A stretch of DNA of 64,000 nt from Polymorphobacter fuscus (GTDB lineage: Bacteria; Pseudomonadota; Alphaproteobacteria; Sphingomonadales; Sphingomonadaceae): contig NZ_JAATJI010000001.1 of assembly GCF_011927825.1 (NCBI RefSeq), positions 868,001-932,000 on the forward strand, read 5' to 3'. The translations under genes and the position numbers were made by a program. Under the pieces are notes generated by a model. That model was not told where the DNA came from and made no database searches. It saw only the letters and a list, made by a program, of their open reading frames with translations. Position 1 is the first letter of the stretch, and each line of letters begins with the position of its first letter. Positions 6,135-25,160 of the stretch are shown here, piece by piece.

Positions 6135-7634
6135 ATGGCCGATATCGAGGGACCCGTCCTTATCGATCCCTGGGACAAGGACGGCCTCGCGCTCGACCGG
6201 CTCGACCCGCTGCCCGCGCTGCCATTTCGATATCCCGATGGCTGGATGCGGCCGATAGAGCTGCGGATCCTATACACGCTGGCGCGCCGCAGCGCCGGAC
6301 CGGTGCTGGAGGTGGGCTCGTGGATCGGCCGCTCCAGCAGTGCTATCGCAGCCGGGCTGCGCGATGGCGTGTGCGATCCGAAGCCTGTCTACGACATCAT
6401 CGATTTCGGCCCTTGTTCGGCCGCGGAATGGCAGCAGCGCTTCGGCCAAAAGCTCAACATAGAGATGGGCGGCGGGCATGTCGCCGCGGCGGTGCTGCAT
6501 CCGGGCGGGTCGATGGCGGTGCTGATCGACAATATGCGGCGCAACGATTTGCTCGGCCACGTTACCAGTATCATCCGCGGGGATGTTCTGGAGACGCCGC
6601 TTGGGCGTCGCTACGGCATGATCTTCTGCGATGCGGTACATGGCGAGGTCGAAGCCAAGCGCACCATGCCGGCCATCGCCGCGCTCGCCGCGGAGCGCGC
6701 GCTGTTCGTGTTCGACGACGTCACTACTGAGGCCTTTGCCGACACAATCTGCAGCTACCTCAAGCCGGTGCGGCGCTTCCTGCTTTCCGGCAAGGATACC
6801 TATGGCAAGCTGCTGGTGGTCGAACACCACGCGCCGGCCGCCCCGGCCAAGCCAGCAGGCTCCGCGCCACGGCCGGTGCCATCGCTTGAGACGGCCCGCC
6901 AACGCCGCGCCGCCGCCGGCGCGATCTGGCGCGACACCTTCGCTGCTCATGGCATCGAGCGCTCCGTCATCCTCGCGAGCACCTTCCGATCGGGCAGCAC
7001 CTACGTATCGTCGCTTCTGGCTGCCAATGGCCTGCCCGGCCTAAGCCACGAACGCTTCGCCGATGCCTGGCGCCACATTGTCGATCCGCCGGGCGAGGCC
7101 TTCGGCGCTTTCCTGAACACCGCGCTGTCAGACGCGCACGGAGGCTGCTTCGCTACCAAGCTGATGTGGCCGCACCTTGCCCGACTGGCCGAGGCAACCG
7201 GCCATGGCCGGGACGAGGCTGCGGATCTCGGCGCGTTGTTCAGACCTGCGCGCTGGATCCAAGTCTGCCGGGCCGACAAGGTGGCGCAGGCCGTCTCTTT
7301 CTGGCGCGCCAAGATGACGGGCCGCTGGCAGGTCTACGCCACGGAGGCCGAGCCGGAACCTGAGTATGATTTCCTGGCCATTCGCAACGCGCTGCACGAG
7401 ATCGAGCTCGGTGACCGGCTGTGGGACGACTTCTTCGCTCGCGCCGGCATCGAACCGTTGCGCGTGACTTACGAGGCGCTAGTGGCAGACTTGCCCGGCG
7501 GCCTGTCTGAGTTGCTGAGTGCGCTCGGCCTACCGGCAGAGGTGCCGGCCGAGCGCGTTGGGCTGCGCCGCCAGCGGGACAGCTATTCCAAGGCGCTACA
7601 AGAGCGCTTCCTGGGAGATTTCTATCGTGTGTGA
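6135..7634 (+). CDS. Fusion protein: class I SAM methyltransferase plus Stf0-type sulfotransferase
   Basis: 499-aa two-domain protein. The N-terminal half (about residues 20-235) is a class I methyltransferase (Methyltransf_24-like): VLEVGSWIGRSSSAIA is motif I, and a later MIFCDAVHGE resembles motif II. After a Pro/Ala linker (about 236-265) the C-terminal half is Stf0-like. It has the PAPS-binding loop LASTFRSGSTYVSSLL, a PTKLMWPH-like ATKLMWPH motif, WIQVCRADKVAQAVSFWRAK and GRWQVY. It should transfer a sulfuryl group from PAPS to a sugar or lipid-sugar and also methylate; acceptors are unknown. The start at 6135 (MADIEG) excludes a 13-residue low-quality extension. Confidence 0.85.
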   Translation: MADIEGPVLIDPWDKDGLALDRLDPLPALPFRYPDGWMRPIELRILYTLARRSAGPVLEVGSWIGRSSSAIAAGLRDGVCDPKPVYDIIDFGPCSAAEWQQRFGQKLNIEMGGGHVAAAVLHPGGSMAVLIDNMRRNDLLGHVTSIIRGDVLETPLGRRYGMIFCDAVHGEVEAKRTMPAIAALAAERALFVFDDVTTEAFADTICSYLKPVRRFLLSGKDTYGKLLVVEHHAPAAPAKPAGSAPRPVPSLETARQRRAAAGAIWRDTFAAHGIERSVILASTFRSGSTYVSSLLAANGLPGLSHERFADAWRHIVDPPGEAFGAFLNTALSDAHGGCFATKLMWPHLARLAEATGHGRDEAADLGALFRPARWIQVCRADKVAQAVSFWRAKMTGRWQVYATEAEPEPEYDFLAIRNALHEIELGDRLWDDFFARAGIEPLRVTYEALVADLPGGLSELLSALGLPAEVPAERVGLRRQRDSYSKALQERFLGDFYRV

Positions 7635-8552
7635 GCGGAGGCGACCGCGGGGCATAGCGAGCGCAAGGCAGTGCCGCCATTTTGAACGATCAACGTCGCA
7701 AGTTCAAATGCGAGGCGTCAAAACGGATCAGGGATCGCGGCGTGAAGATGGCGCAGGCGGCGGCGCTCTGGATCTTTACAACAACGTTTGCGCAAGTGAG
7801 TCAGTGACTGTGGCGCCGATCATGGCGGGAGGTTTCCAGAGCACGGCCGGAGCAGTTGGAGGTCGGACGGCTTCACCCTGAAAGCGCAAAAATGAGAGCT
7901 GGACGCGACATTATAAGAAAGCCGCGACCTATCTTGCGAAAGAACCGGTATGAAGTTCGGGATCTTCGCGAAACATCGAGGGGGCTGGCCGATAGCATGG
8001 ATCTGCGACACACTCGATGTCTCGCCCAGCGGGTTTGACGCTTGGCTGGGCCGTGCGCCCAGTGCGCGTTCCGCAGTGACATGATACTGGGCGCCAGCGG
8101 CGCACCAGCTTCATGCCAGCTAATCCAGCCCATCCGCATATCTATAAAATCGGCAGAAGCTCAATGCCGACTTGCGTGCATCCCGATATTGCAGTCTGAA
8201 ACTACTATCTGACGACCGTGACTTCACCAGACCGATTGCCGATGGAACTCGTTTGCGTCCGATCCTGCCAGTCGGGGAGGTTTTTGGCCATAACGTATTT
8301 ACCACATTCGTTCGCCGTTGACACTGCGTAGTCCTGCAGCAATCATTACTGTCCAGCGGGGGCAATAAGCATGTGGACGGTGATTTTGCGCTCAGTCGCC
8401 GATGGTCTTCCACAACGACGCTCTCTTGCTGGTCAATGGCCGGGAACCATTCAGCCCGCGCGTTCGCGGAACGCAGGGCGCAGCGGCGGCCTTTCGCAGG
8501 CATGGCCTGACCGGGTAGTTCAGTCTGAAAGCTCTGACCTGATGGTAGCGAC
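7635..8552. other. 918-base gap carrying a decayed IS remnant and unresolved sequence
   Basis: No intact gene. About 7859-8110 is a decayed IS3-family transposase fragment (listed separately). The rest, 7635-7855 and 8110-8552, has only short frames without recognisable motifs on either strand. The last stretch before the GTG at 8553 must hold any promoter for the kps-type operon, but I see no convincing element. Confidence 0.5.
7859..8110 (+). pseudogene. Decayed IS3-family element: 3' end of orfA and 5' end of orfB
   Basis: The frame from 7859 reads EVGRLHPESAKMRAGRDII. After a one-base deletion near 7917 the next frame continues KKAATYLAKEPV and stops. Together this matches the C-terminus of IS3-family OrfA (usual pattern ENAKLR.ERDILKKAA.YFAKE). 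The stop overlaps an ATG at 7950 in ATGA fashion, as in intact IS3 elements. That ATG opens a 44-aa frame (FGIFAKHRGGWPIAWICDTL, then SGFDAWLGRAPSARS) matching the OrfB N-terminus, which ends prematurely at 8084. Similarity may continue one frame over to about 8110. No DDE catalytic core remains. Confidence 0.72.
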
Positions 8553-9821
8553 GTGACGCCCCATCGTCCGCTGCTGCTTGACGTGACGAGGCCACTTGCA
8601 CTTGCGTGGACAGGACGCAATCCGACCGGGATTGATCGGGTCTGCGATGCCTACGCACGACACTATCGGACCCGGGCTCACGCGGTCGTTCAGCATCGAG
8701 GCGTTCTTCGCGTTCTGGATGAGCCGCTATCGGACGCGATATTTGATCTGCTTGCTGAACGCGCCAGAAATTTCCGTTGGCAGCTGACGCGGTTGGCGCC
8801 GCGTATCATGCTGACCGGCGTCAAGGCAGAGCATTGCTCGGGCAAGGTCTATCTCAATGTCGGCCATACCGACTTTGACCTCCCTGGCCACTGGCGCTGG
8901 ATAAAGTCTTCCAACGTCAAAGCATATTACATGCTGCACGACTTGATTCCGGTCAAACACCCCAATCTGACGCGCCCCCATGCAGTGCGCAGGCACTCGG
9001 CCAGGGTGACATGTGCCCTGAAGAACGCGGATGGAATAATCGCCAACTCTCAGGCGACATTGACAGAATTGGCGCATTTCGCTTCGCGGCAGGCGTTGGC
9101 GATGCCGTCAGTTGTGGTTGCCCACCTTGGGGTGGATCATATCCCGCAGAAGGCGGCGCCGCCCTACGAGGCTGGCGAGCACTTTGTGTGCTTGAACACA
9201 ATCGAACCTCGAAAAAATCACCTGCTCCTGTTGCGTGTTTGGCAAAAGTTGATTGCTGCAGGCGCAGGCAATGTTCCAAGGCTGGTGTTGATCGGTCGAT
9301 GGGGTCTCCATTCCGAGAAGATACAGCAAATGTTGCGCAGCGATCCGCGCCTGAACCAACACGTCACTGTGCTGGCCAACTGCGAGGACGCCCAAACCTT
9401 CCGCTTGATACGGTCCGCGAGCGCTGTTCTCGTCCCTTCAATGGCAGAAGGCTATGGGCTGCCGTTAGCCGAAGCAATGGCACTGGGCATCCCTGTGATT
9501 GCCAGCGATCTGCCATGCTTTCGCGAAATTGGCGATGCCATACCGCTACTTGTCCCTGCGACTGACGAAGGCGCATGGCAAACAGCGATCACTGAGTTCA
9601 TGAGGAGCAAGAAAGAGGCTGCAAGGCAACGAAATTTGCTGCAGTTCCATCGGCCCAAAAGCTGGAATGAGCATTTTGGTCTGGTCGATCGACTGATCGC
9701 CGGCATCCCCTCGAGCCGCCCGGACGCAACTGGCGTCGCGACGCTGCATCGTTCCAATCCTGTTTTGAGAGCAAGCCTGCCCGTTCGGGACATACCCGAC
9801 AGACAGGCAGCGCGACAGTGA
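8553..9821 (+). CDS. GT4-family glycosyltransferase
   Basis: 422-aa predicted cytoplasmic retaining glycosyltransferase (GT-B fold, family GT4). The N-terminal half contains GRNPTGIDRV, a conserved start in sphingomonad and rhizobial polysaccharide transferases, and KAYYMLHDLIPVKHP. The C-terminal half has LNTIEPRKNHLLLLRVW and the nucleotide-sugar binding E-x7-E motif in AEGYGLPLAEAMALG. It starts with GTG at 8553 and its stop overlaps the GTG of the kpsE-like gene by four bases, so it is the first gene of the export operon. Donor and acceptor sugars cannot be told from sequence. Confidence 0.88.
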   Translation: MTPHRPLLLDVTRPLALAWTGRNPTGIDRVCDAYARHYRTRAHAVVQHRGVLRVLDEPLSDAIFDLLAERARNFRWQLTRLAPRIMLTGVKAEHCSGKVYLNVGHTDFDLPGHWRWIKSSNVKAYYMLHDLIPVKHPNLTRPHAVRRHSARVTCALKNADGIIANSQATLTELAHFASRQALAMPSVVVAHLGVDHIPQKAAPPYEAGEHFVCLNTIEPRKNHLLLLRVWQKLIAAGAGNVPRLVLIGRWGLHSEKIQQMLRSDPRLNQHVTVLANCEDAQTFRLIRSASAVLVPSMAEGYGLPLAEAMALGIPVIASDLPCFREIGDAIPLLVPATDEGAWQTAITEFMRSKKEAARQRNLLQFHRPKSWNEHFGLVDRLIAGIPSSRPDATGVATLHRSNPVLRASLPVRDIPDRQAARQ

Positions 9822-10993
9822 ACGACATGCCTATAAAGCAGGTCTTGTCGGCCACCGATGGCGGCTCGGTCGCCTTGTCTGACCCGCGACGGTCCGTGCG
9901 GCATAAACCATTCTTCATGAAACGGCTTTTTCTTGTCGCGGTCGTGCTGCCGACGTCGATAGCGGGCCTTTATTTCGGCATCTTTGCGAGCGACGTGTAC
10001 ATATCGGACTCCCATTTTGTCGTCCGCAGCCCCGCGCGTCAGGCGGACTCACCATTGGGCGTCATTCTCAGTGCAGGCGGCTTTGCGGGAGCAAGCGAAG
10101 AGTCGAGTGCAGTGCTGGAATATGTGCGATCGCGCGACGCACTCGCTCAAACCGATAGCGATGGACTGCTCACCCGGGCTTTCTCGGCGACATCGGTATC
10201 GTGGTTCGATCGTTTTGGCACCTTATTAAGAGGTAGCACTCGCGAGCACCTGTTCGATTTCTACCTCGGCAAGGTCTCGATCGAGAACGACAGTGCACTT
10301 CAGGTCACGCGCCTGGCAGTCAAGGCTTACACTGCTACGGACGCCCAGGAGATAAATCGGCGTTTGCTCGTGCAGGCAGAAAAGCTTGTCAATCGTTTGG
10401 CTGAGCGAGCCCGGGACGACGCCATAACAGTTGCTGCATCCGAAGTGCGTGATGCCCAAGCGGTTGCCAGGTCGGCGGCCCTCGCTCTGTCAAGGTTTCG
10501 CGGTCGGGAAGGGATTCTCGATCCAGCACAGGAGGCCGATGTTCGTCTCCAGATGGTGTCGAAGCTGCAGGATCAATTGGTTGCCGCACGGACCCAGCTC
10601 CAGCAGCTGCAAACCTTTACCCCACAAGCGACGCAGATCCCGTTCCTTCGCACGCGGATAAAGTCACTCGAACGCGAAATCGCCGAACAGACCGGTAGCA
10701 TCGCGGGCGGCCAAACTTCACTGTCGTTGACAGCCGTCAAATACCAACAGCTTAGGCTGGAAAACGACCTCGCTGAAAAGCGGCTCGCAGCAGCGCTTGG
10801 ATCACTTGAGGAAGCCCGCGCGGAAGCCAGGCGAAAGCGCGCCTATGTCGAGCGGATCTCCGAGCCGAGCCTGCCGGATTATCCCCGAGAGCCACGGCGG
10901 ATGAGAGGCGTGGTTGCTACCCTGCTATTGGGCCTGTTGGTGTGGGGCGTGCTGTCAGCGCTCGTCGCGGGCGTCAAAGAGCATCGCGACTGA
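9818..10993 (+). CDS. kpsE: Capsule export inner-membrane protein, KpsE/BexC/CtrB family
   Basis: 391-aa polysaccharide co-polymerase-type protein linking the ABC transporter to the outer-membrane exporter. One membrane helix lies near the N-terminus (LFLVAVVLPTSIAGLYFGIF) and another near the C-terminus (ATLLLGLLVWGVLSALVAGV). Between them is a long periplasmic domain with SDSHFVVRSPARQ and coiled-coil-prone residues about 210-340. PDYPREPRRM just before the second helix is typical of the family. It overlaps the upstream GT4 gene (GTGA) and the downstream kpsM-like gene (TGATG), so the three are translationally coupled. Confidence 0.9.
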   Translation: MNDMPIKQVLSATDGGSVALSDPRRSVRHKPFFMKRLFLVAVVLPTSIAGLYFGIFASDVYISDSHFVVRSPARQADSPLGVILSAGGFAGASEESSAVLEYVRSRDALAQTDSDGLLTRAFSATSVSWFDRFGTLLRGSTREHLFDFYLGKVSIENDSALQVTRLAVKAYTATDAQEINRRLLVQAEKLVNRLAERARDDAITVAASEVRDAQAVARSAALALSRFRGREGILDPAQEADVRLQMVSKLQDQLVAARTQLQQLQTFTPQATQIPFLRTRIKSLEREIAEQTGSIAGGQTSLSLTAVKYQQLRLENDLAEKRLAAALGSLEEARAEARRKRAYVERISEPSLPDYPREPRRMRGVVATLLLGLLVWGVLSALVAGVKEHRD

Positions 10994-11802
10994 TGGCTAG
11001 AGCTACCCCCATCGTTCGCGACGCAAGTCTTCGCCTTAGCTGGCAAGTGCAGTTGCGCGTTCTCGGTGCCCTGCTGATGCGCGAAACACTGACGCGCTAT
11101 GGGCGGCACAACATCGGGTTTCTCTGGCTGTTCGTGGAGCCCATGATCTTCACGCTTGGCGTGACTGCGCTTTGGACGCTTTCAAAGTCCGTGCATGGCA
11201 GTGACCTCCCGATCGTGGCGTTTGCCCTTACCGGCTATTCCAGTGTCTTGCTGTGGCGCAACATGCCAGGACGCTGCATTGGCGCGCTGAAGGGCAACCT
11301 GGCACTGATGTATCATCGCAACGTCAAAGTTCTCGATATTTATCTGGCACGGGTAATCTTGGAATTTGCCGGTGCGACAATGTCGTTTTCTGCGCTGGGA
11401 ACATTATTCATCAGCCTTGGCATCCTCGAGCCTCCGCAGGACTTTCTCAAGGTGGTCGCCGGCTGGTTGTTACTGGCCTGGTTCGGGGCCGCTCTAGCGA
11501 TTTTTCTTGGCGCGCTGTCGCATCGCAGCGAGCTGGTCGACAAGATCTGGCACCCCGCGGCTTATCTGCTGTTTCCGCTCTCGGGGTCTGCATTCCTCGT
11601 CGCAGCATTGCCGCAGGGCGCCCAGGAAATTGTCCTCTACATTCCTACCGTGCACGGCATTGAGCTGGTGCGCGAAGGCTGGTTCGGTGATCGCGCGCGC
11701 GCGATCTACGATCTTGGATACTTCATCCCGTTCACGCTGGTGCTTAGCGCCCTTGCAATGTTGCAAGTGCGACGGATCGCGCGCTTCGTGGTGCCGGAAT
11801 GA
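10993..11802 (+). CDS. kpsM: Polysaccharide ABC transporter permease, KpsM family
   Basis: 269-aa ABC-2 type permease that carries the glycan across the inner membrane. It has several hydrophobic helices, an N-terminal RETLTRYGRHNIGFLW motif typical of KpsM/BexB/CtrC, and a conserved HPAAYLLFPLSGSAF segment in the second half. ATG 10993 shares one base with the kpsE stop (TGATG). The longer frame from 10942 runs inside kpsE and was rejected. It overlaps the ATPase gene by four bases. Confidence 0.92.
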   Translation: MARATPIVRDASLRLSWQVQLRVLGALLMRETLTRYGRHNIGFLWLFVEPMIFTLGVTALWTLSKSVHGSDLPIVAFALTGYSSVLLWRNMPGRCIGALKGNLALMYHRNVKVLDIYLARVILEFAGATMSFSALGTLFISLGILEPPQDFLKVVAGWLLLAWFGAALAIFLGALSHRSELVDKIWHPAAYLLFPLSGSAFLVAALPQGAQEIVLYIPTVHGIELVREGWFGDRARAIYDLGYFIPFTLVLSALAMLQVRRIARFVVPE

Positions 11803-12497
11803 TCCGGGTACGCAACGTGCACAAGACATACCGAACGGGGTTTGGTACCAATCACGTTCTTGACGATGTCAGTTTTGACCTCGCCATGGGCGAAAAGCTT
11901 GGCATCCTCGGTCGCAATGGTGCGGGCAAATCAACCCTTGTGCGTTTGGTCAGCGGGGCCGAGCAGCCGAACGAAGGCTATATTGAGCGCAACATGTCCG
12001 TGTCATGGCCCCTAGCATTCGGAGGCGCTTTCCAACCGGATTTGACTGGACGCGACAATGTCCGTTTCATCAGCCGTCTTTACGACCAGGACTTCGAACG
12101 TAACTTGGCGTTCGTCAAGGACTTCGCAGAGCTTGGTCCGTATCTGCGCGAGCCCGTGCGCAGCTACTCCTCCGGCATGCGAGCGCGGCTGGCCTTCGCA
12201 ATTTCGATGATTATCGAATTCGATTGTTTCTTGATTGACGAGGTCGGTGCCGTTGGTGACGCGCGATTTCATGACCGTTGCAATTTCGAACTCTTCACCC
12301 GGCGGGCGGACCGCGCGATGATCATCATTTCGCACGATGCCGCCTATGTTCGTGATCACTGCAATCGCTTTGGCATTCTGCACGACGCCAAACTGCAACT
12401 CTACGACGATTTCGAAGTCGCTTACGCGATTTTCAAGGATTTAATCGGTTGGAAGCCACCGCCCGGGTGGCCGTTTGTGGAGCCCGCAACCGCGTGA
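11799..12497 (+). CDS. kpsT: Polysaccharide ABC transporter ATPase, KpsT family
   Basis: 232-aa ATP-binding subunit that pairs with the KpsM-like permease. Walker A is GRNGAGKST (residues 38-46), the ABC signature is YSSGMRARL, Walker B is CFLIDE and the switch His is in IIISHDA. Its size and the short C-terminus match KpsT/BexA/CtrD. These transporters lack the carbohydrate-binding C-terminal domain seen in Wzt, so export should not need a modified glycan end. It starts ATGA-overlapped with kpsM, and its stop overlaps the GTG of the next methyltransferase gene. Confidence 0.94.
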   Translation: MIRVRNVHKTYRTGFGTNHVLDDVSFDLAMGEKLGILGRNGAGKSTLVRLVSGAEQPNEGYIERNMSVSWPLAFGGAFQPDLTGRDNVRFISRLYDQDFERNLAFVKDFAELGPYLREPVRSYSSGMRARLAFAISMIIEFDCFLIDEVGAVGDARFHDRCNFELFTRRADRAMIIISHDAAYVRDHCNRFGILHDAKLQLYDDFEVAYAIFKDLIGWKPPPGWPFVEPATA

Positions 12498-13354
12498 ATA
12501 CGGTGCCCAACCCTGGCCGCCTTCGGCTTGTTGATGTTCGATCGGGAGCGTCGTCGCTCGCGTCGCCCGTCTCGCAACCTTGCAGCCAGGCCCAGATGGT
12601 CGAGCCGACCTATGCTTACTGGTGCGAGCGGATCCACGAGGTGCCGCGTTTCCACCGCAAGCAGTGGGAATTCTGCTATATTCTGCAAGCGCTCGCGCAC
12701 TACGGCGCGATGCGGCCTGGCGCGCGTGGCCTGGGTTTTGGCGTCGGCGAAGAGCCTCTGCCTGCGGTGTTGGCCGCTCATGGTGTTGCCGTGGTCGCGA
12801 CCGATCTCGAACCCATCAGGGCCCGCGAGCTGGGCTGGGTAGATACCGAACAGCACGCGCACAGCAAGGAAATGCTCAACAGTCGCAATATTTGTGAGCC
12901 GGTTGTGTTCAATCAACTTGTCGAGTTTCAGCATGCCGACATGAATAGGATCGATTGCGATTTAAGGGATTTCGATCTTTGCTGGTCGTCTTGCGCTCTC
13001 GAACATCTGGGATCTATAGAGCAAGGTTTGCGTTTTATCCAAAAATCGCTTGATTGCCTGAAACCTGGCGGCATTGCAGTACACACCACCGAATATAATT
13101 GCTATTCCGATACGGTAACACTCGACAATGATTCCACCGTGCTGTTCCGACGTAGTGACTTCATGGCACTAGCGGAGAGGCTGGGTGATGCCGGCCATAA
13201 GTTGGCGTTCAATTTTGATCTGGGCGACAAACCGCTCGATGTCCACATTGATTTGCCGCCCTATGCGCCGGACAACCATCTCAAATTGGCACTTGCCGGC
13301 TATGTCACGACGTCATTCGGCATCATCGTCCGCAAGAAGGGGATAAACGAATGA
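12494..13354 (+). CDS. SAM-dependent methyltransferase in the export operon
   Basis: 286-aa class I methyltransferase. The SAM-binding region reads GARGLGFGVGEEPLPAVLAAHG with VVATDLEP as the acidic end of strand 2. Later DLCWSSCALEHLGS and CLKPGGIAVHTTE match the motif IV and post-II regions. The GTG at 12494 overlaps the kpsT stop (GTGA); the 12449 start would lie in kpsT. Its ATGA overlap with the next gene continues the operon. Methylation of a sugar or a glycan terminus is likely, but the substrate is not shown. Confidence 0.82.
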   Translation: MNTVPNPGRLRLVDVRSGASSLASPVSQPCSQAQMVEPTYAYWCERIHEVPRFHRKQWEFCYILQALAHYGAMRPGARGLGFGVGEEPLPAVLAAHGVAVVATDLEPIRARELGWVDTEQHAHSKEMLNSRNICEPVVFNQLVEFQHADMNRIDCDLRDFDLCWSSCALEHLGSIEQGLRFIQKSLDCLKPGGIAVHTTEYNCYSDTVTLDNDSTVLFRRSDFMALAERLGDAGHKLAFNFDLGDKPLDVHIDLPPYAPDNHLKLALAGYVTTSFGIIVRKKGINE

Positions 13355-14010
13355 TCGCGCTGGGCGCCAAGAAACTGGGTCAGAGGCCCGGGCCCGACGC
13401 CGCCTCAGCTCCTGCCGGAGCGGCAACCGCCCCGGTGACACAAAACAGGACTCGTTTCGATGCGGCAACACGCGCCGAGGCAATTCACCTTGACCATATC
13501 GGAGCCGCCACAGATTCGGAGTTTCAGACCCTTGCGGCATCGGCAGACTCCGCGCGCGACGCGCGACGCTGGGCCGATGCCGAATATCATTACTGGCGGG
13601 CCCTGGAACTTTATCCGTTCCATTCAGGATATCGCATTCAATACGCCCACGTCATCAAGGAACAGGGCAAATTGGATTGGGCCGAAGTCCATTATCGCAG
13701 CGCCGTGGCCGAAGGTGCGCAGTCCAGTCTTGTTGATGAGCATTTGCTGTTTGTGGCCCAGCGCAACGGCGCAACATTTGCACGGGACAGCAAGCTCGAT
13801 CTCGAGGTGGCGCAATTTGAGGCGCCGCCGACTTTTCACGACATCCAAACGCTCGCATGGCTGTTCTGGCACCACAGCGAGATCAACGCCCATGATGCGC
13901 TCGCTGTCCTGCGCGCGTGCGCGAGCAACCGGGACGTCGCGCTGGCGATGATCCGCCATCCTCGGTTTGTCGAACACAACCGGTCGTTTCTTGAAATCAT
14001 GCGGGGGTGA
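13351..14010 (+). CDS. TPR-like protein of unknown role
   Basis: 219-aa soluble protein. After a low-complexity Pro/Ala N-terminus, residues about 65-130 form a tetratricopeptide-like pair (ARDARRWADAEYHYWRALEL, then IKEQGKLDWAEVHYRSAV). The C-terminal third is helical with no motif I recognise. Overlaps of four bases on both sides (ATGA upstream, GTGA downstream) place it in the kps operon, where it may hold glycosyltransferases or methyltransferases together. That role is inference. Confidence 0.7.
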   Translation: MIALGAKKLGQRPGPDAASAPAGAATAPVTQNRTRFDAATRAEAIHLDHIGAATDSEFQTLAASADSARDARRWADAEYHYWRALELYPFHSGYRIQYAHVIKEQGKLDWAEVHYRSAVAEGAQSSLVDEHLLFVAQRNGATFARDSKLDLEVAQFEAPPTFHDIQTLAWLFWHHSEINAHDALAVLRACASNRDVALAMIRHPRFVEHNRSFLEIMRG

Positions 14011-16250: not shown

Positions 16251-16266
16251 CAGGAGGCCATGTGAC

Positions 16267-16680: not shown

Positions 16681-16726
16681 TTCTAATACTTCCGCAATAT
16701 CGGTGGCTGTGATTTGGAGAACGCTG

Positions 16727-17618: not shown

Positions 17619-18362
17619 ATGTCATATGGTTTTCACAATATGAACAAAGATGAGTTTCGCAATGTCTTTCTTAATCACGACATACACTCAAGTGTAATAG
17701 TCGCGAGCACATTCCGATCTGGCAGCACATTCGTTTCTGAGTTGCTGGCAAAAAATGGCGCTCCCGGGCTTGGTCAGGAAAGATTTAATATCATTGGTGG
17801 GGACAGTTGCCCGGATCTACGGACGTACATGTCCAATATGTTGGCGCCCTTCCGTGGTTCACAGTTTCCAACCAAGATTATGTGGCCTCATCGTAACAAT
17901 CTCGCGCGCGTCCTAGGCATAAGTCGCGCAAATTCATCACAATTTAGCGGGCTTTTTCCTGATGCAAAATGGATCCATGTTTACAGAGATGACATATTCA
18001 TGCAGGCTATTTCGATGTGGCGCGCTAAAAAATCAGGAAGATGGCATGTCTATGCGCGTGATCAATCCTCTGAACCCGCTATTGAATACGATTTCGACGC
18101 AATAGATGATTGTATTTGGGAGCTGGCTCTTCACAATCGTCTTTGGCAAGATTTTTTTACGATAAGCGGGATCGTACCGTACGAAGTAAACTATGAGGCT
18201 ATCGTAAATGACGTAAAACTGGTTCTAGTTCCGTTGTTGGACCATCTCGGGCTGGACAGTAGCAATCCCGTAATATATGTCCCGTTACGAAAGCAAGGAG
18301 ACGATTTAACGCGTGAATTCCGGGATCGGTTGATGGAAGATCTGTTTCGGATTGGTCGATAG
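17619..18362 (+). CDS. Stf0-like sulfotransferase (stand-alone)
   Basis: 247-aa PAPS-dependent sulfotransferase related to mycobacterial trehalose sulfotransferase Stf0. The 5'-phosphosulfate loop is VASTFRSGSTFVSELL (about residues 28-43). PTKIMWPH, WIHVYRDDIFMQAISMWRAK and GRWHVYARD follow, and FRDRLMEDLFRIGR ends the chain. It is a clear paralogue of the C-terminal half of the fusion protein at 6135-7634, sharing these motifs in order. A+T-rich composition matches the FkbM gene before it. It follows that gene by 34 bases and probably sulfates the exported glycan. Confidence 0.86.
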   Translation: MSYGFHNMNKDEFRNVFLNHDIHSSVIVASTFRSGSTFVSELLAKNGAPGLGQERFNIIGGDSCPDLRTYMSNMLAPFRGSQFPTKIMWPHRNNLARVLGISRANSSQFSGLFPDAKWIHVYRDDIFMQAISMWRAKKSGRWHVYARDQSSEPAIEYDFDAIDDCIWELALHNRLWQDFFTISGIVPYEVNYEAIVNDVKLVLVPLLDHLGLDSSNPVIYVPLRKQGDDLTREFRDRLMEDLFRIGR

Positions 18363-18460
18363 TCACACATTTTTTTATTTAAGTATTAAGTTTGTTGTTC
18401 GGGTCGGGCCACTGCCGCGTTAAGGTTTCGGGCGCAGGAAATAGAGCGGGGGCGTTCTCG

Positions 18461-19774
18461 ATGAGCAATGTGCTAATAGATGGTTATAATCTCGGGCTTG
18501 AGCGAGGCACTGGGGTTGCAACCTATGCGCGCAACCTCAGCCATGAGCTTAAGGCGCTCGGCCATCAAGTGTCGGTTCTGTACGGCAACAGAGCCGCGCC
18601 CTCGCGTGAAGCGCTGCTCCGAGAGATCGCCTTTTTCGACAGCAATGTCGGAGAACGTGACCGGTTTCTTGAAATCCTCGATCAGATGCACCGCGCGCTG
18701 GTGGGGCCGCTCGGCCACTTCGCTACATCGGTCCCGATCAGCGGTCAGGTCATCACCCGCGCCTTCAGCGCTCGTCTTCCGGCCTACGACCATATTCTCA
18801 ATGCCGCCGACGTCTTCAAACGGTCGCAAAGCGCCTTCAAGCTTTGGGGTTCGATGTCTACCGTTGCCGTGCCAAAGCGGCCCGATCTTGTCCATTGGAC
18901 CTATCCCGTGCCACTTCACATCAAGCGTGCGCCGAACGTCTACACGATGCACGATCTTGTGCCGCTGCGGTTGCCTTATACGACGCTTGATAAAAAGCGT
19001 ACGTATCTCAAGCTGATGCGCCACATAGCAAAATGCGCGGACCACATCGTTACCGTGTCGGAATGTTCGCGGCACGACATCATCAAAATGCTCGGCATTT
19101 CCCCCAATCGGGTTACTAACACGTACCAATCAGTTTCGATCCCGGATCGCTATGCAAACAAGGAGGAGCGCCTTGTTGCCCAGGAAGTAGAGGGGGCCAC
19201 GGGAGTGGGCTATAAAAACTACTTTCTGTTCTGGGGCTCGATCGAGCCCAAGAAAAATATCGGCCGGATGATTGAGGCCTATCTGGCGAGCGGTGTCGAT
19301 ACACCCCTTGTCATCCTTGGTGCGCAAGCATGGAAATCCGAACAGGAGCTACGGATACTCGATGACGATGTCATCCGATTTTTGACCGTAGCCGATGGCC
19401 AGATCCGGACGAAAAAGCGAGTGATCCAGCTGTCCTATGCGCCGTTCAGCCTGCTGGTCAGCCTGATACGAGGTGCTAAGGCCGCGCTGTTTCCGTCGCT
19501 ATATGAAGGCTTCGGCCTGCCTGCGCTGGAGGCAATGTTGCTCGGCACGCCGGTAATCTGCTCCAACACCGCATCATTGCCCGAGGTTGTAGGTGATGCA
19601 GCTGTGATGATCGATCCTTATGATACGGCAGCGTTGTCAGCTGCGATCTGGACCGTTGACCGGGACGCCGACTTGCGAGCAGAACTCGCATCGCGCGGCG
19701 TTCGGGAAGCTGCCCGCTTCTCGCCGGAAATCTATCGCGAAAAACTGCGGGCGCTCTATTCTCGTTTCGTCTGA
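18461..19774 (+). CDS. GT4-family glycosyltransferase
   Basis: 437-aa glycosyltransferase. The N-terminus [20 protein letters not shown] is the acceptor-side glycine loop of GT4 enzymes. [13 protein letters not shown] and [13 protein letters not shown] are typical of the linking strands, and [15 protein letters not shown] is the donor-binding E-x7-E motif. The ATG at 18461 was chosen over 18392 because homology starts at [11 protein letters not shown] gap of 98 bases with an A+T-rich start precedes it, so it may have its own promoter. Confidence 0.88.
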
Positions 19775-19797
19775 CGCTGACCCAAGGACGCCTTCAG

Positions 19798-21081
19798 ATG
19801 CCATACCTTCGGCTCCCGATGCGGCATCAACCGCTTAATGCCCCGATTCCGGGCAACGCGTGGCAAAGGCAGTTGATCCGTTGTGTTGCAATCAGCGGGA
19901 TGGCCGTGATCACACTGCTTGTCCAAAGCGGCTGCACAGCGCTGGGAGGATCGGGGCCAACGCACGCCAGCATAAAACGGCTCGACAAGGCGACTTATAC
20001 TGGTGACGATATCGCTCTGGTCAACCTGAACGGCGCCGCGCTAAAACGAATTAGCGGCTATGAGCAGTCGCGCAGTTTCGCGACGCTGCTCGGCGACAGC
20101 GAGGCGCAGGACCCGGTACTCGGCGCTGGCGACGTCCTTGATATCTCCGTATGGGAGGCGCCGCCTGCGGTCCTGTTCGGTGCCGCAGCCGAAGTCTCCG
20201 CTGCGGGTGCTGGCGCGCAAAGCCGGACCGTCATCCAGCAGGTTGTCGCGACCGATGGCGCGCTGTCGATCCCGTTCGTCGGCCGAATGGATGCCGGCGG
20301 CAAAACTCCGGCCCAGATCGAGCGCGAGATCGTGAGGCGTTTGACCGGCCGCGCGAATGATCCGCAAGCCGTCGTACGCCTGTCGCAGAACGACGCCCGC
20401 AATGTAACCGTGCTCGGCGAAGTTGCCGGCAGCCGGCGAGTGCCGATCGGCCCCCGAGGCGAACGCCTGCTCGACGTCATTGCCAGTGCCGGCGGCACGC
20501 GCCAGCCGGTTGGGCAGGTGACTGTCCAGCTGTCCCGCGGTACGGCCACGACGTCGATGGTGCTTGATCGGGTCATTCGTGATCCGCGGCAGAATATCCG
20601 GGTCAAGACCGGCGATGTCGTCACTCTGCTGTATCAGCCCTATAGCTTCATCGCGCTGGGTGCGATTGCGCGCAATGCCGAGATCCCGTTCGAGGGCGGC
20701 AAATTCTCGCTTGCTCAGGCGCTTGGCCGGACTGGCGGGCTACGCGACGATCGCGCCAATATCCAGGGTGTGTTTATCTTTCGACTTGAGGAGCCAGAAG
20801 CCGTGGACCCGGCGGGCACACTCAACGCCCGGCGAATGGAAAATGGGCGTATTCCGATAGTTTATCAGCTCAATATGAGCGATCCGACCGCATTCTTTGT
20901 AGCCCAGGATTTCGTAATGCGAGACAAGGACGTGCTCTACGTGTCAACTGCACCAGGAGCGGATCTGGCGCGATTTGTCTCAACCGTTGCCAGCATCACC
21001 TTCTCCGCAATTTCGATTGGTAATGTTCTTGGTAGCAGCTCGAACAATGCCGCGACGCCCGCGCCTAAGCCGCAGCCGTGA
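19798..21081 (+). CDS. Polysaccharide export outer-membrane protein, KpsD/BexD/Wza family
   Basis: 427-aa outer-membrane export component. The signal sequence ends in a lipobox-like VQSGC with the acceptor Cys at about residue 46, so it may be a lipoprotein. The poly-export domain carries DPVLGAGDVLDISVWEAP. SLBB-type beta-grasp repeats follow (VTVLGEVAGSRRVPI; FIALGAIARNAEIPF, then LAQALGRTGGL). It should form the channel that the KpsE-like protein connects to the KpsMT transporter. Size matches BexD/CtrA. It lies about 9 kb from kpsE, unlike the compact kps operon of enterobacteria. Confidence 0.88.
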   Translation: MPYLRLPMRHQPLNAPIPGNAWQRQLIRCVAISGMAVITLLVQSGCTALGGSGPTHASIKRLDKATYTGDDIALVNLNGAALKRISGYEQSRSFATLLGDSEAQDPVLGAGDVLDISVWEAPPAVLFGAAAEVSAAGAGAQSRTVIQQVVATDGALSIPFVGRMDAGGKTPAQIEREIVRRLTGRANDPQAVVRLSQNDARNVTVLGEVAGSRRVPIGPRGERLLDVIASAGGTRQPVGQVTVQLSRGTATTSMVLDRVIRDPRQNIRVKTGDVVTLLYQPYSFIALGAIARNAEIPFEGGKFSLAQALGRTGGLRDDRANIQGVFIFRLEEPEAVDPAGTLNARRMENGRIPIVYQLNMSDPTAFFVAQDFVMRDKDVLYVSTAPGADLARFVSTVASITFSAISIGNVLGSSSNNAATPAPKPQP

Positions 21082-21196
21082 CGCGGTGCGCAGTGGTCGC
21101 GCGCGGACGTACCGGTTCAGCCAGCTTTAAAGCCGCTATATGTGAAATGCGCTTCCTTGCGGTATCAGGTCCGCTGCCGGGTCGTGGCACCCTGCA

Positions 21197-22369
21197 ATGA
21201 GCCTCGTTTGCATCGACTGCCGCTACATCAATGGCCGGCCGAGCGGAATTGGCGAGATGATGACGGCTCTTGTCGCCCACATACCCCGACTGGCCCCAGA
21301 TTTGCGCTTCCGCCTACTGGTAAGCCCCCATGCCCCCCGGGACCTGGGTGACGCACCCAACGTTGAACGAATAACCGTGAAAGCGTCGGCGAACGGTCCT
21401 GGCACAATGTGGTGGCTGCCACGCATCGCCGACCTGGGTGGAGTGGATTTGTTTCACGCGACCTTCAACATCCTGCCTGCGGGTCTCAAAATGCCCTGCA
21501 TAACCACAATCCACGATCTGATGTGGATGCAACATCCCGAATGGTGTGATGATGGCTGGTTGCTCCCGGTTCGTCGCGCCTTCTTTCAGCACGGGATGAA
21601 GCGAGCGCTCAGCCAATCCGCCTTCATAGCCACGGTCAGCGAGGCAACGCGCGACGCCCTTATCGAGGCCCTGCCGCAAGTCGCTGCGCAGACCAAAGCC
21701 ATTCCATCCGGCGTCAGTCGTGCCTTTCGGCCTTGGCCGGTTGATCCGTCAACCCTCGCGGCGCTCGGGCTCGATCCGAAACGTCGCTTCGTGCTTATGG
21801 TCGGCCAGTCTGCGCCTTACAAGAATCATGCCAGTGCTATTCGGGGTTTTGCGATTGCTTGCGCAGAACACGAAGACGTTGACCTGCTGCTTGTCCAGAG
21901 ACAGGGGCGTCATTCAGGCTCACTACTTCAGGTGGCGGCTAGTCTAGGTATCGCAGATCGCGTCCGGATCCTGCCGGCTGTGGCCGAGGATCTATTGCTT
22001 CAACTATATGCTTCTGCCGCTGCATTGCTTCACCCATCGCTTTGTGAAGGGTTTGGCCTTCCTCTTGCTGAAGCCATGGCGTGCGGTTGCCCCGTGATCA
22101 CGAGTGATTGTTCCGCCATGCCGGAAGTAACGGGCGATGCAGCCGTTGTCGTCAACCCTCGCGACACGGCGGCCATTGCTGGCGCCATCGCGCGCGTTCT
22201 GAATGAACCCGGGTTCGCAATCGAAATGCGCAAACGTGGCTTCGCGCGCGCCGAAAGCTTGAATTGGGAACAAGCGAGCCTTGCCTACATAGGGTTGTAT
22301 CGCCGAATTCTAGCGGCCTCAACGGCCAACCCACCGCCCGCGCCGTTCTCGCTTGAACATGCTGACTGA
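21197..22369 (+). CDS. GT4-family glycosyltransferase
   Basis: 390-aa glycosyltransferase. The N-terminus CIDCRYINGRPSGIGEMM is typical of GT4 enzymes from sphingomonad gum loci. HDLMWMQHPEWCDD, ATVSEATRDALIE, LMVGQSAPYKNHASAI and CEGFGLPLAEAMACG (donor-binding E-x7-E) follow in order. It starts 115 bases after the KpsD-like gene. Which linkage it makes is unknown. Confidence 0.88.
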   Translation: MSLVCIDCRYINGRPSGIGEMMTALVAHIPRLAPDLRFRLLVSPHAPRDLGDAPNVERITVKASANGPGTMWWLPRIADLGGVDLFHATFNILPAGLKMPCITTIHDLMWMQHPEWCDDGWLLPVRRAFFQHGMKRALSQSAFIATVSEATRDALIEALPQVAAQTKAIPSGVSRAFRPWPVDPSTLAALGLDPKRRFVLMVGQSAPYKNHASAIRGFAIACAEHEDVDLLLVQRQGRHSGSLLQVAASLGIADRVRILPAVAEDLLLQLYASAAALLHPSLCEGFGLPLAEAMACGCPVITSDCSAMPEVTGDAAVVVNPRDTAAIAGAIARVLNEPGFAIEMRKRGFARAESLNWEQASLAYIGLYRRILAASTANPPPAPFSLEHAD

Positions 22370-22524
22370 TCACACCTTAAGATATGTTACTATATGCCAA
22401 CAGATGCGAGTGGATGAGGGTAAAACAACAGCGCAATCGCGGTTTCGCAATAATTAACAGATAGAAAGCCACTTCTAAATTCTTCTATTTCTACGCAAGA
22501 ATATTCTCGGTTGCCTATCGATAA

Positions 22525-22543
22525 TCCGAAAAGGACTTTCGGA
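22525..22543. promoter_or_regulatory. Inverted repeat, possible operator
   Basis: Perfect 7-bp arms TCCGAAA / TTTCGGA around a 5-base spacer, in non-coding A+T-rich DNA upstream of the small gene at 22579 and the CDP-alcohol phosphotransferase gene. It is not followed by a T-run, so it looks more like a protein-binding site than a terminator. No binding protein is assigned. Confidence 0.3.
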
Positions 22544-22578
22544 AAGCATAAAATTCGAAAAATTGGATCGATTATAGC

Positions 22579-22755
22579 ATGGTAAATCGGATTATGGTTC
22601 TGGATATGGATCTTTCTGATGATCAATCGTTTGTTTTCAGTGACATGCGCTTCCTTGCGGACATTAGACTTTTAGCGACGGTTCAGGATCTTTTTGGCTT
22701 GTCCTCTGCCCGTGTGCTGCTCCATAATGAATATACGGCGGGTCGAATCGGCTAA
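22579..22755 (+). CDS. Possible small protein (58 aa)
   Basis: An open frame of 58 codons in an otherwise empty gap. It begins MVNRIMVLDMDLSDD, continues FSDMRFLADIRLLATVQDLF and ends LHNEYTAGRIG. Residue composition is balanced and protein-like, unlike the Arg/Pro/Ala-rich shadow frames elsewhere. The start could be Met1, Met6 or Met10; none has a strong ribosome binding site. No family recognised. It may be a small regulatory or structural protein of the locus, or not expressed. Confidence 0.35.
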   Translation: MVNRIMVLDMDLSDDQSFVFSDMRFLADIRLLATVQDLFGLSSARVLLHNEYTAGRIG

Positions 22756-22819
22756 AGAAATCAATCGGGGCCTAGCAGCAGGTGACGGGAAGTTGGTGCG
22801 TCGGTCGTAGGGGGGTCAA

Positions 22820-23986
22820 TTGCCGCGCATAATTCTGGTATTTGCTTCAACGGAAACCGCTACCGCTAATGTCGCTGGGCTTCCATCGATCGCGCGCGCT
22901 GCACGCGAAGCCGATTTGGCGGCACAGCAATTTACGAATTGCTGCGACATCATCCTGGCTGTGTCAGGTAGATCTTTTCTTGATAGCTGGAGTCTTGAGG
23001 AAATTGCGCGTCTTGTGCCCGGTGTCGAAAATTGCCCGACCCTAACTGCTGATCTCGTGCCAGCACCCGGCGATCTGTGGCTTGCTGGGGAACTTCTTAC
23101 ACCGGCAGAAACGATTCTGAATTGCTTGCGGTTGAACCGGGAAGGACCGAATCGGCTGTCGTGTGTGTCGGAACCGGACAGAATTCAGTGCTTCCATGCC
23201 AAGCAAGGCCCCACTGGCCTGGCAACCTTGCTTGATGCAGCAGGAAGGGACATTGTCAGAGCAACGATAAAGTCCAGCGACGGAATCGTTTCGAGGCATT
23301 TCAATCGACCGATCTCCACGCGCATAACCCGCTTGCTATTGCCGTACAGGGCGGTCCGCCCGATCCACGCGACTGCTGCTGCTGCTCTGATCGCGTTGGC
23401 CATGTTTTATTGCCTTATTTCTGGCTCCTATGCTGGCCTGATGGCCGGTGCGATACTCTTCCATATTGCGTCAGTCATTGACGGGGTAGACGGAGAAATA
23501 GCCCGAGCCACATTTCGAACCAGCAAAATGGGAGCGACCCTCGACTCCTTGACCGACGCGATTACCAATCTCGCGTTTCTGACAGGCTTGGGACTCGGCC
23601 TTACGTATCAAGGCGCTGAAAACGCGGCGCTTACAGGAATGATAGGCTTTGCATGCCTGAGTACGGGTCTTGTGCTCCTCGGCGGAGTCGCGGCATTTTC
23701 CGGGAGACCGATAAACTTTGATGCCCTCAAATGTGTCGTAAGGCAGAGCCGTACCCAGGCGGCAAATTGGATTGTCTGGCTGACGATGCGCGACTTTCTC
23801 GCACTTACCGGTGCTTTGATGGTTGTCTTTGGGTTCGGTCAGAGATTTTTGCAACTGTTTGCGATCGGTTCCTGCTTGTGGTTGATCGCGGTTGTCGCCT
23901 TGGTAACGGTCGACTCGGCGAGCGCGCGAACTCCGATGCAGCGTCAGCTTCGATCAAGAGGCCGCGCGCACCGGTCTGGACACTGA
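22820..23986 (+). CDS. CDP-alcohol phosphotransferase-domain membrane protein
   Basis: 388-aa protein. The C-terminal half (about residues 165-385) is a CDP-alcohol phosphatidyltransferase domain with several membrane helices. It has the full catalytic motif DG-x2-AR-x8-G-x3-D-x3-D in VDGEIARA through MGATLDSLTD. The preceding SRHFNRPISTRITRLLLPY resembles the start of di-myo-inositol-phosphate-phosphate synthase domains. The N-terminal half (about 1-160) sits where those enzymes carry a nucleotidyltransferase, but no GGxGTR-type motif is visible. It begins at TTG 22820 after AGGGGGG. It may transfer a polyol phosphate to a lipid or sugar; substrate unknown. Confidence 0.8.
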   Translation: MPRIILVFASTETATANVAGLPSIARAAREADLAAQQFTNCCDIILAVSGRSFLDSWSLEEIARLVPGVENCPTLTADLVPAPGDLWLAGELLTPAETILNCLRLNREGPNRLSCVSEPDRIQCFHAKQGPTGLATLLDAAGRDIVRATIKSSDGIVSRHFNRPISTRITRLLLPYRAVRPIHATAAAALIALAMFYCLISGSYAGLMAGAILFHIASVIDGVDGEIARATFRTSKMGATLDSLTDAITNLAFLTGLGLGLTYQGAENAALTGMIGFACLSTGLVLLGGVAAFSGRPINFDALKCVVRQSRTQAANWIVWLTMRDFLALTGALMVVFGFGQRFLQLFAIGSCLWLIAVVALVTVDSASARTPMQRQLRSRGRAHRSGH

Positions 23987-24151
23987 GCTTTGCCGGATTG
24001 CGCCGCGATCGTCGACGTCATCGGACTTCCCTCGAACCGCGCCGAGTGGGCGAGTCGCAGCAGACATTCCACCGCGCCGAGAGGCTCGCTTCATGGGTTC
24101 ACGGCCTGGATCACTGACCGCCGCCAAGACGCCGGTCGAGGTCCGCGCCAA

Positions 24152-24182
24152 CCCTCGCTTGATTGCAGCCTATAAGCGAGGG
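24152..24182 (+). other. Inverted repeat in the leader of the sulfotransferase-like gene
   Basis: Arms of 9 bp (CCCTCGCTT / AAGCGAGGG) around a 13-base loop, ending 21 bases before the ATG at 24204. It could fold in the mRNA leader or terminate readthrough from the CDP-alcohol phosphotransferase gene, but there is no T-run. The 217-base gap (23987-24203) shows no other feature. Confidence 0.35.
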
Positions 24183-24203
24183 CAAGACTAGGAAGGATGC
24201 CGC

Positions 24204-25160
24204 ATGAAGGCCCGCCCCGTTTTGATCCAGACGCTGTGGCGGACAGGCGGTACCTATCTCGCCTTCCGGCTGCGCGAGGCCAATACGGCCAGCCTGTTCT
24301 ACGAACCGCTGCACGAAGATTTCTCGCGCCATCCGCGAGGGCGGTGGGACGCCTGGGCGTCAGCGGGGATGCAGCGCGAACTCGGCCATCCCGAGGCCGC
24401 TTTCCACTACCTCACCGATTTTCCGACCAATGAAGCAGGCATGGTCCCCGGCCACCAGGAATCCTTCGCCTGGCAGCCCTTTGCCCTGGCAAAAGGTGAG
24501 GAATGTCCGGCATTGGCCGGCTATCTCGAAGGCCTTGCGCAGACCGCGCCGGCGCGCGCCGTCTTCAAATTCTGTCGGGCGACGTTGCGCAGCCACTGGA
24601 TCGAGGACCTGCTGGGCGGTACCACGATCTACGTGCTGCGCGACCCGGCCGACATGGTCGCTGCCTATCGTGCGCGGCAGGCTGGCGACTATTTCTTCTC
24701 GCAGATGCTGCGCATCGTGCTGTTGAACGCCGACACGCCGGTGCTCGCCCCCGCGGCGGCGCTGTTGATCGCGCGCCATCCCGACTTGCAAGCGCTCGAC
24801 GACGACGCTCGTCGCGCCAAAACCCTCTGCCACGTCATACCGATGCCGGAGCGGATCGCGCTCGCTGCGCATTTCTGGCTGCTGTCCCTCGCTGCGCATT
24901 GCCGGGCAGACGTTCTGATGGTCGATGCCGCCGACTTCGCGCAAGCTTCCGTGCAGCAAGCCATCTCTGAAGCAACAGGCCTCGATTGCGAACTGAGCGA
25001 CGCGAGGCCGCTCGACGCCCGAGGCGGTGTCGATGTGAGCTTCGCCGATGCAGACTGGCGGGAAGCCGCCATCGGCGCCCTCGCCTGCCTTGGGAACGTC
25101 GGCCCCGTGCCTCCCGCCGCAAGGCGATACGCGCGGCTTGTTGGAGGGTTGCTGACATGA
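24204..25160 (+). CDS. Sulfotransferase-like P-loop protein
   Basis: 318-aa protein resembling sulfotransferases. LIQTLWRTGGTYLAFRLRE near the N-terminus fits the 5'-phosphosulfate binding loop. VFKFCRATLRSHWIEDLLGG followed by TIYVLRDPADMVAAYRAR fits the 3'-phosphate binding strand-helix of the PAPS site. The fold-defining motifs are there but the chain is distant from the Stf0 pair in this locus. A ribosome binding site AGGAAGG precedes the ATG at 24204. It is the last plus-strand gene of the island and the third sulfotransferase-like enzyme in it. Confidence 0.72.
   Translation: MKARPVLIQTLWRTGGTYLAFRLREANTASLFYEPLHEDFSRHPRGRWDAWASAGMQRELGHPEAAFHYLTDFPTNEAGMVPGHQESFAWQPFALAKGEECPALAGYLEGLAQTAPARAVFKFCRATLRSHWIEDLLGGTTIYVLRDPADMVAAYRARQAGDYFFSQMLRIVLLNADTPVLAPAAALLIARHPDLQALDDDARRAKTLCHVIPMPERIALAAHFWLLSLAAHCRADVLMVDAADFAQASVQQAISEATGLDCELSDARPLDARGGVDVSFADADWREAAIGALACLGNVGPVPPAARRYARLVGGLLT

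Follow-up and report, generated by a model that had tools for sequence, protein, structure and literature searches.

How is an ATP-binding cassette (ABC)-exported capsule anchored when the enzymes that make its usual lipid terminus are missing? According to the available part of PMC12220298, KpsS and KpsC make a phosphatidylglycerol terminus bearing 3-deoxy-D-manno-octulosonic acid (Kdo), and a single Kdo-based terminus is described for ABC-exported capsules in general, the exception being the Vi antigen, the known system without these two enzymes. The question is raised by a ~19-kb co-directed gene set with intact reading frames, at positions 6135-25160 of a 64,000-nucleotide stretch of Polymorphobacter fuscus DNA (the window), which an earlier reading of the letters (the original prediction) had taken for the locus of a sulfated, methylated capsule or exopolysaccharide. 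Our answer, held tentatively and somewhat short of probable, is a Kps-exported, sulfated, methylated capsule whose Kdo linker would be replaced by an inositol-phospholipid-type terminus, made via cytidine diphosphate (CDP)-alcohol chemistry with a CDP-alcohol phosphotransferase at 22820-23986 (enzyme D). The genes, identified by Pfam, NCBIfam, and PDB sequence matches, are as follows.

6135-7634 (open reading frame [ORF] opens at 6096), + strand: Methyltransferase_24-Stf0 fusion (PF09037, 3.6e-27; PF13578, marginal)
8553-9821, + strand: GT4_1, GT4 glycosyltransferase (PF00534, 4.4e-19; adjoins KpsE in relatives)
9818-10993, + strand: KpsE/PCP-3 inner-membrane export protein (TIGR01010, 5.9e-94)
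10942-11802, + strand: KpsM ABC-2 permease (PF01061, 2.8e-8; NF050053, 2.1e-26)
11799-12497, + strand: KpsT ABC ATPase (PF00005, 6.8e-18)
12449-13354, + strand: S-adenosylmethionine methyltransferase, Methyltransf_11 (PF08241, 1.1e-6)
13351-14010, + strand: TPR-like protein (weak TPR match)
14007-16250, + strand: GT2-GT4 fusion glycosyltransferase (PF00535, 5.9e-22; PF00534, 2.1e-25)
16246-16680, + strand: small ORF, no family assigned (33% match in locus L068)
16631-17584, + strand: FkbM-family methyltransferase (PF05050, 8.7e-21)
17619-18362, + strand: Stf0 sulfotransferase (PF09037, 2.6e-26; 1tex, 8.5e-12)
18392-19774, + strand: GT4_2, GT4 glycosyltransferase (PF00534, 9e-22)
19798-21081, + strand: KpsD/Wza-like outer-membrane export protein (PF02563, 9.3e-17; PF22461, 1.7e-13)
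21197-22369, + strand: GT4_3, GT4 glycosyltransferase (PF00534, 5.7e-28)
22820-23986, + strand: enzyme D, CDP-alcohol phosphotransferase, IPCT-DIPPS/PIP-synthase-like (PF01066, 3.2e-9)
24204-25160, + strand: sulfotransferase-fold protein, putative locus member (predicted structure)

The predicted KpsE, KpsM, KpsT, and KpsD/Wza-like exporters are intact, and all gave family matches. KpsE scores 315.1 bits with TIGR01010, below a curated cut-off (437.5 bits) that none of the 199 family genomes reaches; KpsM matches ABC2_membrane above cut-off and NF050053 below it; KpsT, at 232 amino acids (aa), has no space for a carbohydrate-binding extension; and the KpsD/Wza-like protein combines Poly_export (9.3e-17) with an SLBB domain. 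A KpsM with a KpsT that lacks a carbohydrate-binding domain, together with a PCP-3 (KpsE/BexC/CtrB) and an OPX (KpsD/Wza) protein, places the locus among capsule-export systems. The four glycosyltransferase genes (8553, 14007, 18392, and 21197) were likewise borne out by family matches. Two of three proposed methyltransferase domains stood, at 12449 and 16631, and the third, a Methyltransf_24 domain in the ORF at 6096, is marginal (25.7 bits; cut-off, 26.3).

The original prediction saw no kpsC or kpsS in the locus, and the absence extends to the whole genome: PF05159, the KpsC/KpsS family, has no match there, not even a first-look candidate, in an assembly that is 100% complete in 3 contigs. 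The same profile is sensitive enough to match relatives at down to 1.7e-4 and occurs in 52 of the 199 family genomes, including all three other sampled members of the genus (one, G106, with an internal stop codon in the match). The KpsC and KpsS pair that defines a group 2 Kdo-linked system is thus absent at the sensitivity of this profile, and with it the standard phosphatidylglycerol-Kdo terminus lies beyond the known enzymes here. A Pfam scan of the locus proteins named no lipid acyltransferase, and no VexE was recognized in the locus, the only part of the genome covered for it. The prediction had placed the lipid anchor either elsewhere in the genome or in a different chemistry; KpsC/KpsS elsewhere is excluded at PF05159 sensitivity, and the different chemistry gains a candidate in enzyme D.

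Enzyme D and the Kps loci of relatives

Enzyme D and the TPR-like protein were the two genes absent from the original prediction's list. D matches PF01066 above cut-off (its best NCBIfam match, NF041135, is at 4.3e-25 and below cut-off), aligns with PDB entry 4mnd (3e-14), and carries intact the motif DxxDGxxAR-x8-GxxxDxxxD, quoted for CDP-alcohol phosphotransferases in the available part of PMC9246714, which makes it a member of that group. It shares motif and fold with Archaeoglobus IPCT-DIPPS (4mnd) and PIP synthases (5d91 and 6h59); unlike IPCT-DIPPS, it has no cytidylyltransferase domain found by Pfam, and a domain of this kind has a separate gene in the related loci L128-L131. The structural model is multi-helical, with membrane CDP-alcohol (CDP-OH) enzymes as its closest folds, a likeness that points to a lipid acceptor; confidence is moderate (mean predicted local distance difference test [pLDDT] score, 72.7; 6 sequences), and the N-terminal 140 residues allow no assignment from such a model. 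Inositol is suggested as the substrate by the best-matching family and by the inositol-3-phosphate synthase (INO1) and cytidylyltransferase genes that neighbor D in relatives.

Among the 199 genomes, a strong KpsE (>140 bits, our own cut, with a gap down to 56 bits) is present in 52, 39 with PF05159 and 13 without. A D profile, for which up to 10 first-look candidates were scored per genome, found eight genomes at 1e-10, none with PF05159; among the strong-KpsE genomes, D is present in 7/13 without PF05159 and 0/39 with it (Fisher, 1.3e-5), and INO1 lies within 10 kb of KpsE in 6/13 and 0/39, respectively (8.4e-5). A CDP-OH motif scan (our own regular expression, over a stretch that is asymmetrical where KpsE lies near a contig or region end) hit 8 of the 13 KpsE loci without KpsC/KpsS and none of the 17 KpsC/S-positive KpsE loci scanned (2.2e-4), nor any of 11 KpsC-centered regions without KpsE. 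The motif takes a different form in G118 and G155.

Five loci from genomes without KpsC/KpsS (L128-L131 and L133, in G078, G002, G180, G008, and G036) each hold D, a second CDP-alcohol phosphotransferase, and INO1, in varying gene order and orientation, and match the window in KpsM (68-72%), KpsT (71-78%), GT4_2 (60-65%), and KpsD (49-54%). D thus stands in a Kps locus in six genera, five of which also have INO1 and the second phosphotransferase there. The INO1 of L131 matches TIGR03450 at 1e-118, below the curated cut-off, and the cytidylyltransferase-like gene found in L128-L131 has no match in L133. In L132 (G135), a short contig, the synthase and the cytidylyltransferase lie beside Kps genes, and D is on another short contig. 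GT4_2 recurs at 48-65% identity in L068, L125, and L128-L133 and the 12449 methyltransferase at 55-63% in L068, L125, and L132; matches to GT4_3 above 300 bits were confined to the five D-carrying loci among 42 relative loci compared. Locus L068 (Novosphingobium sp. Fuku2-ISO-50; 20.7 kb) has nearly the same exporters, GT4_2, the GT2-GT4 gene, the methyltransferase, and an Stf0 gene, plus KpsC, and within it neither D nor a close GT4_3 was found. Closely related KpsMT pairs with KpsC (L068) and with a CDP-alcohol enzyme (the window and its relatives) are ready for a clean comparison.

The window genome has its own inositol cluster at C1:830.8-835.0 kb (830792-834961; positions 8793-12962 of region L144), ~42 kb upstream of the Kps genes (~56 kb upstream of D), which brings INO1 together with a cytidylyltransferase-like gene and a second, intact CDP-OH enzyme. 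Its INO1 is of a type common in the family, not that of L128-L131. The parts for an inositol phospholipid are present in the genome, and the Kps locus may draw on them.

Several results weigh against an inositol-based anchor. The window genome's inositol genes lie outside the Kps locus. Of the eight D matches, six are rows of the search profile itself, which leaves as informative its absence from the other genomes and two additional finds (G135 and G138). INO1 anywhere in the genome does not separate the groups (8/13 versus 14/39; P = 0.12) and was rejected as a marker of the lack of KpsC/KpsS, and the locus-level CDP-OH scan covered 17 of the 39 KpsC/S-positive KpsE genomes. INO1 was not found in G118 or G155, so inositol would not be universal, and no CDP-OH motif appeared in the 20 kb scanned of G189, G087, G011, and G014, genomes without KpsC/KpsS that have a weaker KpsE and no close KpsM. 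G138 (L156) carries the whole inositol module and a GT4 gene with no Kps match in 20 kb. Finally, a KpsM/KpsT tree of 24 rows (including L068 and 14 of the 17 KpsC/S-positive KpsE loci, with L076, L078, and L082 dropped for having no KpsT match, and with L132 labeled CDP-OH although its D is on another contig) groups all CDP-OH rows but one in a single clade (eight of nine; 98/98), with G155 apart; two changes, or about two origins, explain the pattern, and the Fisher values overstate independence.

Some side observations concern the same genes. The window TPR-like protein matches the KpsT ORFs (460-549 aa) of L128-L130 and L133, and in L128 a TPR_2 domain lies past the ABC domain, so that the TPR-like domain is fused to KpsT there and a separate gene in the window; KpsT with such a tail seems unusual and could serve to sense the glycan or gauge how long it is. 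After INO1 in L144, a 440-aa membrane-like protein without a Pfam family (10735-12057) looks by eye like a CDP-alcohol phosphotransferase lacking the catalytic aspartates, adjoining the intact one. The L156 set (INO1, cytidylyltransferase, two CDP-alcohol phosphotransferases, and GT4) may be a stand-alone glycosyl-inositol lipid module. Also in L068 are a cellulase-like gene of family GH5 and another P-loop-like protein (10679-11878 and 12743-13777), the latter without a Pfam or NCBIfam family and sulfotransferase-like by eye. GT4_3 had two generic GT4 matches in the PDB, one titled D-inositol 3-phosphate glycosyltransferase; these were too unspecific and were not used.

Sulfotransferases and sulfate supply

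Three sulfotransferase-like proteins had been proposed, of which two held as Stf0 proteins (the C-terminal half of the 6135 fusion and the 17619 protein) and the third, at 24204, as a sulfotransferase fold only. The Stf0 pair scores 95.9 and 93.1 bits with PF09037 (curated cut-off, 22), aligns with the solved Stf0 1tex, and carries, in register with it, FRSGST and RxDxxxQA[IV]SxWRA, which we take to be the 5′-phosphosulfate loop and 3′-phosphate motif for 3′-phosphoadenosine-5′-phosphosulfate (PAPS). Both are putative enzymes of PAPS-dependent sulfate transfer to a sugar, and they are the genome's only two Stf0 genes, both within the locus. Each is paired with a methyltransferase, by fusion at 6135 and by adjacency to the FkbM gene at 17619; FkbM-Stf0 fusions occur in other proteins (P0037 and P0038). 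Among the 7996 candidates scored, those sharing most words with it, the methyltransferase-Stf0 fusion has eight near-full-length relatives at 61-82% identity, including those of Neoroseomonas lacus and Roseomonas sp. HJA6. In N. lacus (L067) it closes a standalone cassette, in the order TPR, GT2-GT4, FkbM, and methyltransferase-Stf0, with no match to the window Kps genes within 10 kb.

Stf0 was found in 20 of the 199 family genomes. Twenty-four regions of 14-20 kb around Stf0 genes in the 19 genomes other than the window's showed no match to the window KpsE or KpsM; the sole KpsT match among them, in L035, is weak (42 bits), and the GT2-GT4, GT4, and FkbM genes are weakly matched in a single region, L052 (G104). 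A conserved family-wide sulfated-capsule locus is thus unsupported. These counts fit the expectation that such a product would be unusual for a sphingomonad, although one Novosphingobium locus, L068, also carries Kps, GT2-GT4, and Stf0 genes together. Taken together, family, motif, and fusion or neighborhood evidence supports the predicted sulfated, methylated, ABC-exported capsule.

The 24204 protein has no sulfotransferase match in Pfam, NCBIfam, or PDB sequences. Its predicted structure (pLDDT, 89) has PAPS sulfotransferases as top matches, and its only PDB sequence matches, to prenyltransferases in a helical stretch, were set aside as unrelated, since the model of the entire protein folds like a P-loop sulfotransferase. 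An alignment of 25 of its 26 homologues (found among 7995 scored candidates, those sharing most words; the short P0049 was left out) keeps the arginine of R-x7-S, presumably the 3′-phosphate-binding Arg and Ser of PAPS sulfotransferases, while the serine is alanine in 9 of the 25 rows, the window's clade, and serine in 16. Its claim to be a sulfotransferase is weaker than that of the Stf0 pair, and we regard it as a protein of that fold and a putative member of the locus.

As predicted, the locus has no PAPS synthesis genes and would draw its sulfate supply from elsewhere: an operon of the ordinary kind lies at C1:141-145 kb, where an APS kinase-CysN-type GTPase fusion (cysNC) has cysD-type and cysQ-type neighbors (names cysD and cysQ inferred from family and neighborhood). 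With APS kinase in 188/199 family genomes, PAPS supply is ruled out as a special trait, and the PAPS genes are background, no evidence of sulfation. The genome's single CysH, outside the cys operon, has CC and CxxC pairs, which we take to be the signature of an APS reductase; cysteine synthesis need not then use PAPS.

Proposed working, rivals, and known systems

With an order of steps and substrates suggested by the gene families, the GT4 and GT2-GT4 enzymes would assemble the chain, and the two Stf0 enzymes with their paired methyltransferases would O-sulfate and methylate it, with PAPS supplied by core sulfate metabolism. D, INO1, the inositol-phosphate cytidylyltransferase-like protein, and the second CDP-alcohol phosphotransferase would yield an inositol phospholipid, which GT4_3 or GT4_1 would prime for chain growth and export; KpsMT would recognize the lipid-started chain, and KpsE and KpsD would pass it out. 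A bolder form of the proposal, which we regard as doubtful, is a third anchoring route in sphingomonads, in which the inositol phospholipid of a CDP-alcohol module, perhaps on ceramide, carries the capsule in place of KpsS/KpsC and Kdo, with a glycan that is also sulfated and methylated in the window strain. If true, it would give Gram-negative bacteria an equivalent of phosphatidylinositol-anchored lipoglycans.

Instead, the role of D and the inositol genes might be to decorate the chain, phosphoinositol being transferred to its sugars as a side group or within the repeat unit, and the lipid terminus would then be of another kind, for instance a diacyl sugar like that of Vi or an undecaprenyl-based start. 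IPCT-DIPPS enzymes, by their family name, transfer phosphoinositol to an alcohol, the small amount of inositol in Bacteroides capsule is not all bound to lipid (available part of PMC9246714), and the Vi antigen is exported without KpsC/KpsS (available part of PMC12220298); we nonetheless think decoration unlikely, given that D, in a model of moderate confidence, lies nearest to membrane CDP-OH enzymes with their implied lipid acceptor, that no lipid acyltransferase was named by Pfam among the locus proteins scanned, and that a link with the absence of KpsC/KpsS would be unexpected. About equally unlikely is that the glycan is an exopolysaccharide, released or only loosely retained, and that D is a lipid gene which travels along through common descent and plays no role in anchoring. 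D is kept in the Kps locus across six genera despite altered gene order and orientation; G118, inside the clade, lacks D yet has another CDP-OH enzyme by KpsE, and G155, outside it, has an enzyme with the same motif form ~6 kb from KpsE. These points speak against mere co-travel, which would agree with the single clade that holds 8/9 CDP-OH rows, with the G138 inositol module standing without Kps genes, and with INO1 that is free of Kps linkage in many genomes.

That the product is an ordinary Kdo-linked group 2 capsule, with KpsC and KpsS too divergent or missing from the assembly, is very improbable. The closest comparable KpsC locus, L068, does have nearly the same exporters and glycosyltransferases, but PF05159 gave no candidate in a complete, three-contig assembly while detecting matches down to 1.7e-4 in relatives. 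The sulfate itself might go to another molecule (a glycosphingolipid or a small sugar), leaving the exported polysaccharide unsulfated: the N. lacus cassette stands without window Kps matches within 10 kb, no KpsE or KpsM match was seen in the regions around Stf0 genes of the 19 other family genomes, and the solved Stf0 structure is, by its PDB title, a complex with trehalose. Since the genome's only Stf0 genes both sit in the Kps locus and the Kps, GT2-GT4, and Stf0 combination recurs in L068, we judge another target improbable.

The proposed inositol-phospholipid terminus would set the locus apart from the systems nearest to it. It shares KpsM, KpsT, KpsE (PCP-3), and a KpsD-type protein in one locus with the group 2 capsules of Escherichia coli and Neisseria meningitidis and differs in having a CDP-alcohol phosphotransferase in the locus and no KpsC/KpsS match in the genome. 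With the Vi antigen of Salmonella Typhi (VexA-E) it shares ABC export without KpsS and KpsC (available part of PMC12220298); Vi has VexE and a diacyl-HexNAc terminus, whereas none was recognized in the window locus, which has the CDP-OH gene instead. Vibrio sp. KMM 8419, whose sulfated capsular polysaccharide was studied by nuclear magnetic resonance, likewise combines kpsDMET, sulfotransferase genes, and PAPS genes and is a precedent for the sulfated capsule; as far as the available part of PMC11641403 goes, its cluster contains kpsS and cysNDC, neither of which is in the window locus, where the sulfotransferases are Stf0-type and fused to or adjoining methyltransferases. Bacteroidetes (Bacteroides and Prevotella) cluster INO1, a MobA-like nucleoside triphosphate transferase, and CDP-alcohol enzymes for inositol lipids, much as here; in the available part of PMC9246714 these clusters are not described beside KpsMT genes, and their HAD hydrolase partner was not identified in our loci. 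From the same part of that source, Novosphingobium acidiphilum has a sphingolipid consistent with phosphoinositol-dihydroceramide for which no known cluster was found, which counts as an independent precedent in favor of the proposal.

A sulfated ABC-exported capsule is therefore already known in kind from the Vibrio strain, and the window glycan would be a further example of bacterial polysaccharide sulfation; the anchor would be the new part, if confirmed. Among open-licence papers, we noticed none that connects sphingomonad KpsMT loci to inositol or to CDP-alcohol enzymes, which is no proof of absence from print. If CDP-alcohol chemistry does replace the Kdo terminus, the substrate end of the transporter is more flexible than assumed, and the genes described here might supply the set for inositol sphingolipids like that of N. 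acidiphilum.

Composition and edges of the locus

The guanine-plus-cytosine (GC) content of the stretch is 0.584, against 0.675 in the remaining window, with its lowest values in the FkbM (0.486) and 17619 Stf0 (0.452) genes and host-like values at both ends (methyltransferase-Stf0 fusion, 0.665; 24204 gene, 0.659). The lowered GC fits acquired DNA, except for the two end genes. About 0.9 kb separates the fusion gene from the Kps genes; an IS3 transposase remnant suspected at 7950-8084 is not claimed, as Pfam is silent on its 44 residues. Rfam and tRNA scans of the window gave no matches. Between GT4_3 and D lies a 450-base gap (22370-22819; GC, 0.438) with no convincing gene. Just past the locus, on the minus strand at 27876-28562, is a resolvase-type recombinase gene, a possible trace of the arrival of an island.

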